Shown in pieces: positions 12,021-64,000 of a stretch of 64,000 nt of DNA. The stretch spans positions 1 through 64,000 of the forward strand of contig CAIOVX010000084.1 in the NCBI GenBank assembly GCA_903861835.1. The letters are read 5' to 3'. Each line of letters opens with the position of its first letter. Position 1 is the stretch's first letter. The DNA comes from Candidatus Firestoneibacteriota bacterium. Its GTDB lineage: Bacteria > Oederibacteriota > D2-FULL-39-29 > CAIOVX01. The notes under the pieces were generated by a model that had not been told where the DNA came from, did no database searches, and was given only the letters and a program-made list of their open reading frames with translations. A program made the position numbers and the translations under genes.

Positions 12021-12278
12021 GGTTTGTAACGTTCTTAACGTTCATAACGTTTGTAACGTAAGACGGTAAAAAGTTAGTAAGGTTTGTAAGCCGCGCTTCG
12101 CGCGTCTTGTTCTGATAAGTAAGATATTATTCATGCCGGACTACGTCCGGCATAGGAGAATAAGCCGCAGCTCCGCTGTGTCTTGTTCTGCAGGGTAAGA
12201 TATATCTCATACCGGACTACGTCCGGCATAGCAGAATAAGGTTTATAACGTTCTTAACGTTCGTAACGTTTGTAACGT
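12021..12278 (+). repeat. AACGTT arrays enclosing two tandem ~74-bp hairpin units
   Basis: AACGTT 9-bp units occupy 12021-12060 and 12240-12278. Two tandem hairpin units lie between (12090-12163 and 12164-12239), each with the ATGCCGGAC/GTCCGGCAT palindrome; in the second copy the left arm has changed to ATACCGGAC. The array starts 4 bp after the stop codon at 12016. This explains nearly all of the 328-bp gap before 12345. Confidence 0.85.
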
Positions 12279-22701: not shown

Positions 22702-22816
22702 GGTTTATAACGTTCTTAACGTTTATAACGTTTGTAACGTAAAGCAAACCTTGGCAAACCCTGATAAACCCTGTTCAATCATGTTTACGTTATAAACTTT
22801 ACGAACGTTATAAACC
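22702..22816. repeat. Inverted AACGTT element between convergent genes
   Basis: It opens GGTTTATAACGTT and closes AACGTTATAAACC, with 9-bp AACGTT units in both arms and a 40-bp centre. The right end stops one base before the stop codon of the minus-strand nitroreductase. It has no internal gene and may act as a bidirectional terminator. Confidence 0.85.
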
Positions 22817-35917: not shown

Positions 35918-36142
35918 GGTTTATAACGTTACTAACGTTCTTAACGTTTTTAACGTAAAGCTAGAGTAAAAGAATCAAGGCCAAAGTGCAAGCACTAAAC
36001 GCTAAATCCTAAACAAACTGCAAAAAGAAAAGGAGCAGTTAATTACTTTGATTGATTGCCTTTTGTCCTTTGTTTAGAATTTAGAGTTTAGAATTTAGTG
36101 CTTGTTGTTATTTACGTTACAAACGTTATAAACGTTATGAAC
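35918..36142. repeat. Complete palindromic element, empty-site form
   Basis: The outer arms are AACGTT 9-bp arrays (35918-35957 and 36110-36142). The inner arms are CAAGCACTAAAC with CCTAAACAAA (about 35989-36019) and TTTGTTTAG with TTTAGTGCTTG (about 36069-36103). The centre reads CTGCAAAAAGAAAAGGAGCA, uninterrupted. In the sister element at 122-528 this centre holds the 128-bp element at 267-394. The left end begins one base after the stop codon of the oxidoreductase gene. Confidence 0.85.
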
Positions 36143-46906: not shown

Positions 46907-46933
46907 ACGCTTTTCCGGCGAAGTACGCATTAA

Positions 46934-47099
46934 GGTTTATAACGTTATTAACGTTCTTAACGTTTGTAACGTAATGCGCATAAAGGGAAAAAGGTTTACT
47001 TTATTAACTTTCGTAACGTTTACAACGAAAAGAATGGAATAATGATTTGTACTTTGTCTTACGTTATGAACCTTACAAACGTTACAGACGTTACAAACG
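46934..47099. repeat. Inverted AACGTT element upstream of mutS
   Basis: It begins GGTTTATAACGTT, with 9-bp units to about 46975. The right arm from about 47060 is GTTATGAACCTTACAAACGT and further units. The centre carries a degenerate additional array (GGTTTACTTTATTAACTTTC). It lies between the LolA-like gene and mutS, ending 23 bp before the mutS start. Confidence 0.85.
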
Positions 47100-59964: not shown

Positions 59965-60084
59965 GGTTTATAACGTTCATAACGTTTAAAACGTTCATAA
60001 CGTAAAAATAAACAGAATTTGTAGCGGTTTGCCACGGTTTGCATTTCGTTACAAACGTTAAGAACGTTAGTAACGTTATAAACC
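59965..60084. repeat. Inverted AACGTT element between convergent genes
   Basis: The left arm begins GGTTTATAACGTT and the right arm ends AACGTTATAAACC, with 9-bp units in each and a 40-bp centre. The right end is 10 bp from the stop codon of the minus-strand speE gene. Confidence 0.88.
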
Positions 60085-60094
60085 GCACTTAGTA

Positions 60095-60997
60095 TTATTT
60101 ATCTAACACATACTTCTTCAATTTCTCAAATTTATCGAACGATTTCTTGTCAGTGGAGACCCTTCCGAATTTCCTGTAAATTGACTCTTCTTCAGGCGTC
60201 GGTTCTAACAGATAACTTGTAGGCGTGAATTGCTCAAAGATATATCCTTTCTTCCTCATCTTTTGGAGGTTCTTCAGTATCCTGTCGTAGGAAAGCGGCG
60301 ATTTTGACGCCATCCTGTAAGTCCACCCCATCGCGAAGCAGGGCATATCCACTCTTGCCGTAAAGATGTTGGGGAATACAGCTTTAACTGTCTTAAAGAT
60401 AGTGGCGAAGGATTCAGGGAAGAGGACGAAATTATCCGTGTGGATAGAGAGAATTCCGCCTTTGTTTATTCTGTTTTCGCACACTTTGTAGAATTCTTTG
60501 GTGTAGAGCATTTTGGACGGTCCGTGCGGCTCCGTGAGATCTATTACCATAACATCGAACTTTTCTTCCGTGTCCTCGAGATAGGCGCGGGCATCCTGGT
60601 AAACTATCTCAATCCTTTTATCCTTGACCACTTTTTGTATTAGCGGATAGTATTTAATGCAGAAATCAACAACCCCTTTGTCTATTTCAACCATCAGGAT
60701 CCTTTTAAGCGAACTCCACTTTACGGCTTCTTCAAGCGCGTAGCAGTCTCCGCCGCCTACTATACAGATGCTCTCCGGGTTCTTATGCGCAAGTAGAGGC
60801 GCGTCTACCAGGTACTGGTGGTATTTGTTTTCGTCGCGCTCAGAGATTTGTATTTTGCCGTCCAGGAAAAGCAGTGTCCCGAAAGTTTCATTTTTAAAAA
60901 GTTCCATTGTCTGGAACGGCGTTTTTCCGTGATAGAGTTTTTTGCCGCCATAAATGTGTCCGAACTGGTCTGTTGTCCATTCTATTTTTTTCTGCAT
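60095..60997 (-). CDS. speE: Spermidine synthase-like polyamine aminopropyltransferase
   Basis: A 300-residue enzyme of the SpeE family. The N-terminal part has the substrate loop MELFKNETFGTLLFLDGKIQ. The cofactor site reads VGGGDCYALEEAVKW, where most SpeE proteins have GGGDGG. The catalytic segment is VIDLTEPHGPSKMLYTKEF, where most have DSTDPVGP. It transfers an aminopropyl group from decarboxylated S-adenosylmethionine to a diamine; the changed motifs mean the exact amine is uncertain. ATG at 60997 has GGGAGG upstream and its own promoter. No speD or speA is nearby. Confidence 0.85.
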   Translation of the reverse strand: MQKKIEWTTDQFGHIYGGKKLYHGKTPFQTMELFKNETFGTLLFLDGKIQISERDENKYHQYLVDAPLLAHKNPESICIVGGGDCYALEEAVKWSSLKRILMVEIDKGVVDFCIKYYPLIQKVVKDKRIEIVYQDARAYLEDTEEKFDVMVIDLTEPHGPSKMLYTKEFYKVCENRINKGGILSIHTDNFVLFPESFATIFKTVKAVFPNIFTARVDMPCFAMGWTYRMASKSPLSYDRILKNLQKMRKKGYIFEQFTPTSYLLEPTPEEESIYRKFGRVSTDKKSFDKFEKLKKYVLDK

Positions 60998-62469: not shown

Positions 62470-62498
62470 TTGTCAGTTGATGAAATTTGTTCTAATAT
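62470..62498 (+). promoter_or_regulatory. Promoter of the leader RNA / lysine-rich mini-gene unit
   Basis: TTGTCA (62470-62475) and TAATAT (62493-62498) are 17 bp apart. The transcript would begin near 62505 and end at the terminator 62767-62800. Confidence 0.7.
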
Positions 62499-62504
62499 GT
62501 ATGT

Positions 62505-62672
62505 GTGAGAACAAAAAATATAGCTCAGCAAAATCAAGTCCGCTTTTCAATTCCCGAAAAACAACATTGCTTATTTTAATTATAAATATTTAGGGCCGAA
62601 AGGCCTGAAGATGCTAGTGCCGTATCGTAACGGAGGTTGATTTACTTCGCTTGAACGGCAGAGGAGGTGTCT
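62505..62672 (+). promoter_or_regulatory. Structured leader RNA with alternative stems, unknown class
   Basis: It holds a GNRA-type hairpin, GGCC-GAAA-GGCC (62594-62605). Two pairings that exclude each other follow: the local stem CCGT/ACGG (62620-62633), or the longer TGCCGT/ACGGCA (62618-62623 with 62655-62660). The second ends directly at the Shine-Dalgarno GAGGAGGTG (62661-62669) of the mini-gene, as in translation-controlling switches. I matched it to no riboswitch family I know. Confidence 0.5.
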
Positions 62673-62729
62673 GTGGCTAAGAAAATAGCAAAGAAAACAA
62701 AGAAGACTGCAAAGAAGAAAAAGAAATAG
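62673..62729 (+). CDS. 18-residue lysine-rich peptide gene
   Basis: A GTG start with a very strong Shine-Dalgarno, GAGGAGGTG, 3-4 bp before it. The product reads VAKKIAKKTKKTAKKKKK (first residue Met in translation): 12 of 18 residues are Lys, in an AKK repeat like the tails of histone H1-type bacterial proteins. It lies alone between its own promoter and terminator. It could be a nucleic-acid-binding peptide, a leader peptide that measures lysine supply or ribosome speed, or the short coding part of a regulatory RNA. A truncated end of a longer AKK-rich protein is less likely, given the intact signals. Confidence 0.5.
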   Translation: MAKKIAKKTKKTAKKKKK

Positions 62730-62766
62730 GCTTCCGCTTGCGTAAAGCAGGTTTAGTGAAAGGAAA

Positions 62767-62800
62767 AGGGGTTACGGCTAGTCCGGAACCCCGTTTTCTT
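62767..62800 (+). terminator. Intrinsic terminator of the mini-gene unit
   Basis: GGGGTT (62768-62773) pairs with AACCCC (62787-62792), extended inside by CGG/CCG, followed by GTTTTCTT. It is 38 bp after the mini-gene stop. Confidence 0.85.
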
Positions 62801-62827: not shown

Positions 62828-63039
62828 GTTTGTAACGTGGGAACGTTTATCTTTCAGATGCCGGAGAAAACCTCACCCTTTAGGGTGAGGATGAATCCGG
62901 CATGAATAATATTAACACACCTATAAAGAGAAACTCCGGCCTTCAGGCCGCAGAGTTTCATAACGTTTTTAACGTAAGGCGCAGAAGCTAAAACGCGGTG
63001 TACGTTATAAACGTTAAGAACGTTATGAACGTTATAAAC
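62828..63039. repeat. Inverted AACGTT element with nested hairpins
   Basis: The outer arms are AACGTT units (62828-62850 and 62997-63039). Inside lie a two-level hairpin at 62858-62903, with ATGCCGGA/TCCGGCAT outside and CCTCACCC/GGGTGAGG inside, and a second hairpin at 62931-62958 with CGGCC/GGCCG. The outer hairpin arms recall the palindrome of the 74-bp units. The right end is 3 bp from the stop codon of the minus-strand DUF2156 gene. It fills most of the 313-bp gap from 62730 to 63042. Confidence 0.82.
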
Positions 63040-63042
63040 TAA

Positions 63043-64000
63043 TTATATAGTTATTGTGTAAACCCCCAGTTTTTCCACCGGTTTATATAATTCCTTCGCT
63101 GTCTTTAGCCCTTCTATCCCGTCGTGCCCCATCGTGTTAATGTATTTGCAGGCAATAAGTTCCCTGCAGAGCTCTCTGAAAATATACTGTCCCGCCCCTT
63201 TGAATGCCGGGTTTGCGATCTCGAAATACACGCAAAAAGTATCTTCCGAAATGGCTGTGCCGAAGGTATAGGCCGCTATCTCCGCGCCGCATCTTAATAC
63301 CCGGCCGGTAAGACCGAGTTTATCGGGTATAGAAAGTGCTGTCCTGTTGGCTTTCAATGTGTGTTTAAGCAGGTGAAGTTCGTTCTCGAATTTAGTCCTT
63401 TCAAATTTGTGGTTGTACCAGGAGTTAAGGACCGCCGCGCAGCCTTCAAGATCGCCGGATTTATACTCCACGAATGTAATCTCAGCATTCTTCGCGAATA
63501 CATTGCAGAGCCAGCGTGCCCCCTTGTAATTATCTCCTTTTAGTTCTGCCAGCGCGGGACTCTTGTAAAGGAATTCCTCGGAAGATGCGCTCGCGGTTAA
63601 CCCGTCTTTTGCCGCTTTTCCCGCTGTCTCGGCGGAGGAGTTGAAAATAGTTAAGCCATTTGCCGCATTTAACACGGCAAGCAGCCGGGAACTTTCCCTG
63701 CACGCTTTCAATGAATAAGGCAGCGGGGGAAGAGGCATACTATAGTCTTTGCCCGTTCTGGAAAAGAGGCAGAAAGAACCGTCAATTATCTTCCAGAAAT
63801 ACGAGGTTATTTCAGTCCAGATCATATGGTAGGGAAACCCGTAAGCAGAAAGCCTGCCGGAATTGAAGAAATGGCTCCTGAAAAAGAAGCCGGCGTCAGG
63901 CGAGAGGGTGTTCAGGGCATCATTCGCTTTCCCGTTTTGAGCAATGACTTTAAGCGGAACGAAACTCTCTTCCCATTCAATTTCGGAGTCAGAAGGGACT
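63043..64000 (-). CDS. DUF2156 (phosphatidylglycerol lysyltransferase C-terminal-like) protein, partial
   Basis: Minus strand, at least 319 residues, with the 5' end beyond the window. An ATG at 63825 exists, but the frame stays open to base 64000 with conserved-looking sequence (ESFVPLKVIAQNGKANDALN, then SPDAGFFFRSHFF), so the true start lies outside. The rest shows the paired GNAT-type fold of DUF2156: YKGARWLCNVFAKN, EYKSGDLEGCAAVLNSWYNH, YTFGTAISEDTFCVYFEIAN, MGHDGIEGLKTAKELYKPV. These proteins resemble the aminoacyl-phospholipid synthase domain; the substrate is unknown. A repeat element sits 3 bp after its stop. Confidence 0.85.
   Translation of the reverse strand, partial: VPSDSEIEWEESFVPLKVIAQNGKANDALNTLSPDAGFFFRSHFFNSGRLSAYGFPYHMIWTEITSYFWKIIDGSFCLFSRTGKDYSMPLPPLPYSLKACRESSRLLAVLNAANGLTIFNSSAETAGKAAKDGLTASASSEEFLYKSPALAELKGDNYKGARWLCNVFAKNAEITFVEYKSGDLEGCAAVLNSWYNHKFERTKFENELHLLKHTLKANRTALSIPDKLGLTGRVLRCGAEIAAYTFGTAISEDTFCVYFEIANPAFKGAGQYIFRELCRELIACKYINTMGHDGIEGLKTAKELYKPVEKLGVYTITI

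Follow-up and report, generated by a model that had tools for sequence, protein, structure and literature searches.

The window, by which we mean the whole stretch of 64,000 nucleotides analysed here, carries at positions 62470-62800 a mini-gene unit of about 300 bases which is real. As observed in an earlier sequence-only reading, promoter, leader, Shine-Dalgarno sequence (SD), open reading frame (ORF) and 3' hairpin follow each other there as a stand-alone unit, and the whole set recurs in all four genomes that were searched of the Candidatus Firestonebacteria genus (that of the window and G001-G003). We regard it as fairly probable that this is a mini-gene with its own promoter and terminator-like hairpin, making a free polycationic peptide which resembles an H1 tail and binds nucleic acid or polyphosphate. 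Judged from sequence comparison, the unit and its conservation across the order are established; the peptide, going by its composition, would best be read as a tiny nucleoid-binding protein, one of the products that had been proposed for it.

Architecture of the unit

The unit is composed of the following features, given in window coordinates:

62470..62498, plus strand: sigma-70-type promoter TTGTCA-17-TAATAT (TTGTCA 62470-62475, TAATAT 62493-62498)
62486..62515, no strand: perfect dyad TTTGTTCT-N14-AGAACAAA, spanning the -10 element and the presumed start site
62517..62590, plus strand: stretch of the leader that is not conserved in the genus alignment
62593..62606, plus strand: leader hairpin P1, GGGCC-GAAA-GGCCT, whose core GGCCGAAAGGC is invariant in the genus
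62618..62660, plus strand: leader hairpin P2, TGCCGT (62618-62623)/ACGGCA (62655-62660); TGCCGG/CCGGCA in relatives
62631-62635 and 62645-62649, plus strand: stem P3 inside P2, CGGAG/CTTCG; GCGGA/TCCGC in relatives
62620..62633, plus strand: competing short stem CCGT/ACGG, absent from the relatives in the alignment
62660..62667, plus strand: SD AGAGGAGG, directly 3' of P2
62673..62729, plus strand: ORF with GTG start, 18 residues (VAKKIAKKTKKTAKKKKK), 11 of them lysine
62736..62752, plus strand: small 3' hairpin GCTTGC/GCAGGT, kept in relatives with one-sided changes
62760..62800, plus strand: terminator-like hairpin AAGGAAAAGGGGTTACGG/CCGGAACCCCGTTTTCTT with 18-base arms, nearly invariant in the genus

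The leader measures about 168 bases, and the P2 stem adjoins the SD without covering it. A start at another GTG of the same frame, at 62667, would lengthen the peptide by two residues, but this codon overlaps the SD. The hairpin at 62760-62800 ends in GTTTTCTT. By itself, the promoter motif is no more frequent than chance would allow (2 sites against 3.0 expected), and the transcript as a whole folds with unremarkable energy (z -0.77), so that the case for the unit rests on comparison.

Conservation within the genus

From the SD through the 3' hairpin the four genomes are 85-92% identical. In their alignment the promoter block (TTAACACTTGTCAGTTG and TATTATGTATGTGTGAGAACAAA), of which the genome of the window holds a single full copy, is present in 4/4 genomes and nearly invariant, with TATTAT as the -10 in the relatives versus TAATAT in the window, and the P1 core, P2, the SD, the ORF and the 3' hairpins are kept. 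The right arm of the dyad is invariant in these four genomes and the left arm is partly degraded in G002 and G003; the dyad is a possible operator.

When the ORF was compared with those of two relatives, 5/6 and 6/7 of the nucleotide changes were located at codon position 3 and only one residue was changed. Since the changes within the genus are nearly all third-position and synonymous, the 18-codon ORF looks translated; the coding reading is well supported, and the pattern of substitutions shows selection on the ORF within the genus.

The stretch between the stop codon and the 3' hairpin is also nearly invariant. Together with the completeness of so small a unit this would be in line with a dual-function RNA, whose transcript has a base-pairing role of its own while the peptide is a second product, and there is a precedent in VcdRP, a dual-function RNA encoding a 29-aa protein (PMC8672173). 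However, the hairpins largely account for the invariant 3' part and the counterparts in the sister family show no sequence similarity beyond the SD-ORF part; we consider a dual function rather improbable.

The gene neighbourhood is partly retained: upstream, all relatives have an ORF that matches no Pfam profile and may encode a GNAT-type acetyltransferase, and an LPG_synthase_C protein is encoded downstream on the other strand wherever the contig or an overlapping contig reaches. Some further search matches were rejected as copies of the unit: L011 falls on a larger protein with a lysine-rich end and L013/L014 on the N-terminus of a longer ORF; these and L006 are matches to A/G-rich coding or intergenic DNA. 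L005 is the contig-end overlap of the G001 locus and not a separate copy.

Counterparts in the sister family

Using the form of G006 as query, a K-rich counterpart of the ORF (15-20 residues, GTG start, GGAGG) was found in 5/5 genomes of the sister family (f2, with the genus as f1). Genus and sister family together thus contain the mini-ORF in 9/9 genomes of the order, and the check proposed earlier, whether the peptide is conserved in relatives, came out in its favour. The f2 peptides that follow GGAGG and GTG are VAKKKAKKVAKKKAKKGKKK, VAKKAKKASKKKAKKGKKK, VAKKAKKAVKKAVKKGKKK, VAKKAKKAAKKGKKKGKK and VAKAKKVVKKAKKKG. Forward-pattern matches elsewhere in the phylum (G015, G016, G037, G042) were not counted as homologues; the reversed pattern, used as a control, had 0 matches in 45 genomes of the phylum.

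Similarity between f1 and f2 is confined to the SD-ORF part. The f2 ORF contains a codon-sized indel, and its changes are, unlike those in the genus, not concentrated at third positions. The genomic neighbours differ as well: the f2 mini-gene lies behind genes for a flavodiiron-type protein and a rubredoxin, with a thioredoxin-reductase-like gene next downstream in 4/5 genomes and another ORF in between in G008 (these names rest on sequence resemblance rather than on a profile search). The mini-genes of both families likely, but not provably, share their ancestry: their loci differ, and ORFs of such low complexity can become alike by convergence.

Could the ORF have arisen by chance in A/G-rich sequence within a non-coding RNA? 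It is short and of low complexity, and A/G-rich DNA gives lysine codons for free, but the third-position substitutions, the SD kept in all members of the genus, the indel of codon size in f2 and the empty reversed-pattern control all argue against chance, for which we see a slim probability.

The composition of the ORF, 11 of 18 codons being for lysine, and the terminator-like hairpin behind it are also features that a lysine-sensing leader peptide (attenuator) would have, and a lysine-responsive leader had indeed been suggested. No cognate biosynthetic or transport gene lies downstream in the same direction, however: the next gene of f1 runs towards the unit (63043-63999, minus strand), and that of f2 is the thioredoxin-reductase-like gene or another unrelated ORF. 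As no lysine gene follows the mini-gene in f1 or f2, the suggestion had to be given up, and an attenuator is very unlikely indeed.

The 3' hairpin of f2 has 10 pairs with 100% of cells paired and 4 pairs changed on both sides, a covariation score reached by 0/500 shuffles. Since the f2 3' hairpins lack a U-run, their function as terminators is unproven.

Leader structure

The GAAA-capped hairpin P1, pointed out in the earlier reading, recurs with its core unchanged throughout the genus. With regard to the two mutually exclusive stems that had been described for the leader, both exist in the window sequence, but only TGCCGT/ACGGCA (P2) is kept whereas CCGT/ACGG is lost in the three relatives, where the bases it needs are gaps or different. 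Of the two alternative pairings on which a riboswitch-like switch would depend, one is therefore retained in the genus. Among the four sequences, 96.9% of the P2 cells are paired and one pair is compensatory, but with so few sequences 114/500 shuffles reached its covariation score. About half of the f1 leader, namely its first half, is not conserved in the genus. Searches of Rfam at gathering and at relaxed thresholds returned no family, the lysine riboswitch included; a hit to CsrC RNA (RF00084) of 19.8 bits, far below the gathering score of 61, was treated as chance.

The loop strand of P2 (ACTTC in the window, CTCC in the relatives) is complementary to the SD in all four sequences and could pair with it in a pseudoknot-like alternative fold. 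The f2 leader is built differently from that of f1 and contains an invariant segment, TTTGCCAAAGGAGGATA. Its CTTTGCC is complementary to GGCAAAG at the start codon, and in the stem that both can form (L086-L090, about 1500-1620) the loop contains the SD and part of the start codon is paired. This stem is a candidate translational control element; being nearly invariant, it lacks support from covariation.

These observations bear on the possibility of a translational RNA switch, in which the leader would alternate between an SD-open state (P2/P3) and a state with the SD paired to the loop strand or with CCGT/ACGG formed, the trigger for peptide output being temperature, a ligand or the peptide itself as an autoregulator. 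The conserved P1 and P2 with their compensatory pair would fit such a switch, but the rival stem CCGT/ACGG is not retained and the first half of the leader is not conserved; the SD-complementary strand is there in all four sequences, but the predicted SD pairing varies among them; and the f2 stem is suggestive, but f1 and f2 leaders are unlike, with only four and five sequences, respectively, and without a match in Rfam. We hold the switch to be unlikely. The earlier claim of a switch-like leader is weakly supported, given the loss of its rival stem in the relatives and the different construction of the sister-family leader, and the leader is probably an ordinary translation leader rather than a riboswitch.

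Nature of the peptide

The peptide consists of 11 lysines in 18 residues, the rest being A, I and T in addition to the start V/M, and thereby shows the Lys-dominated composition, free of acidic and aromatic residues, of the H1-like tail proteins. Its length of 18 residues lies below the tens to hundreds of residues of their tails. As this length falls short and DNA binding would be expected from composition only, we did not assign the peptide to any named family. No profile of Pfam or NCBIfam matched the peptide type (searched with the 20-aa sister-family form and two longer relatives), and literature searches, with subscription journals outside their coverage, returned no paper describing such mini-proteins. 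Together with the Rfam result this agrees with the earlier statement that no described family with this layout was known. The mini-gene is a very short variant of the H1-like lysine-rich proteins, for which the libraries searched contain no described family.

In the reading that we favour, the mini-gene would express a free, disordered and strongly cationic peptide of 18 residues, equivalent to a few repeats of a lysine-rich tail of the H1 type (AlgP/Hc). As a genetically encoded polycation it should bind nucleic acids, DNA or RNA, or polyphosphate by its charge, and the outcome could be compaction of the nucleoid, association with ribosomes or RNA, or the organisation of granules. The leader hairpins would keep the SD accessible, stabilise the message or tune initiation and would not sense a ligand. 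Peptides of lysine-rich H1-like repeats do bind DNA (PMC9239181), and the lysine-rich tails of HupB and Ku serve DNA binding (PMC7398561). The affinity of this polycation may be low, the peptide being far shorter than the H1-like tails described.

Surroundings in the window

Arrays of 9-base units (ACGTTATAA type) are located at 123-190, 489-530, 2133-2374, 12027-12278, 22703-22740, 35924-36142, 46929-47099, 59966-60077 and 62957-63039. They are apparently intergenic and often occur as pairs of opposite orientation that flank a short core; when up to 2 mismatches were allowed, AACGTTATAAACGTT was matched 59 times in the window against 0.09 expected. Beside the same gene, relatives carry comparable arrays whose unit is altered (GTTTATAAG type). 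Behind the mini-gene unit lies an imperfect 35-base inverted repeat (62845-62916, ATGCCGGAGAAAACCTCACCCT / AGGGTGAGG...CCGGCAT), and G002 has exactly the sequence of 62840-62890, where its contig stops, which would fit a repeated element. A spermidine synthase gene (60095-60997, minus strand) is found near the mini-gene; a link to polyamines is so far only a coincidence of position.

Similar mini-genes beyond the phylum

Genes of such shortness are usually skipped by annotation. We scanned GTDB with a degenerate pattern (GAGG, RTG-GCN-AAR-AAR-NNN-GCN-AAR-AAR and a short lysine end) and obtained 63 stretches. The ORF has no more than 40 residues in 53 of these, with Planctomycetota, Verrucomicrobiota, Acidobacteriota, Omnitrophota, Bdellovibrionota, Chlamydiota and several archaeal groups as sources. 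Tiny M/V-AKKxAKK...KKK genes with an SD occur in many phyla; the composition of the matches proves nothing, as the pattern itself forces lysine richness. An intrinsic terminator was found within 150 bases for 30/49 testable short ORFs (61%) compared with 42/580 random stretches of the same DNA (7%). Given their low complexity, the matches in different phyla could be convergent.

Two Phycisphaerae have a common 16-residue ORF with conserved flanks, and a class-wide search recovered genes of this type whose products range from 12 to 154 residues, mostly with GAAAGGAGGTGA as SD. The 3' region behind the mini-gene is conserved in several of these genomes: L127-L133 show a conserved GTGRGCCGTAACTCAAAATTTTGATTTCAGCTCAC and a terminator with a ACGCCACGG loop about 60-170 bases after the stop of the ORF, behind AKK genes of 12-94 residues. 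Rfam had no match in the two Phycisphaerae loci scanned (L034, L064), and this region is possibly a new structured 3' UTR motif. Two Acidobacteria (L030, L067) share a 15-residue MAKKPAKKAAKKKKK gene with conserved leader and terminator, and a long hairpin into which their leader can fold shows compensatory differences (GGRCGAATTGTAG...CTACAATTCGTCC). Most matches of the search in Acidobacteria were longer or unrelated K-rich ORFs.

Quite tentatively, free H1-tail-like mini-proteins of 11-40 residues might constitute a widespread unannotated class of bacterial and archaeal genes with conserved structured UTRs specific to each lineage, i.e. polycations dosed by their UTRs. If lysine-repeat mini-proteins were common in uncultured phyla, they would represent a minimal chromatin- or RNA-binding protein, and H1-type tails would be able to exist as whole proteins. 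The Phycisphaerae series, with lengths from 12 to about 150 residues, would allow testing which tail length is needed for function.

Comparison with known systems

The dual-function RNAs VcdRP and SgrS/SgrT have in common with the unit a short stand-alone transcript, a small ORF and structured ends, but within the order no part of the mini-gene is better conserved than its ORF, and a target-pairing region is hypothetical. Leader peptides of amino-acid attenuators share the short ORF rich in one kind of codon and the terminator-like hairpin that follows, whereas the mini-gene has no regulated biosynthetic operon behind it. Finally, Lys/Ala repeats are shared with the H1-like tails, i.e. the C-terminal domains of AlgP and PhaF, Chlamydia Hc1/Hc2 and the lysine repeats of HupB, Ku and actinobacterial TopA. 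Both these tails and the mini-protein are free of aromatic and acidic residues and are expected to be disordered and to bind nucleic acids; the known cases, however, are long tails or much larger proteins, whereas the mini-protein is complete with 15-20 residues and has no folded domain.
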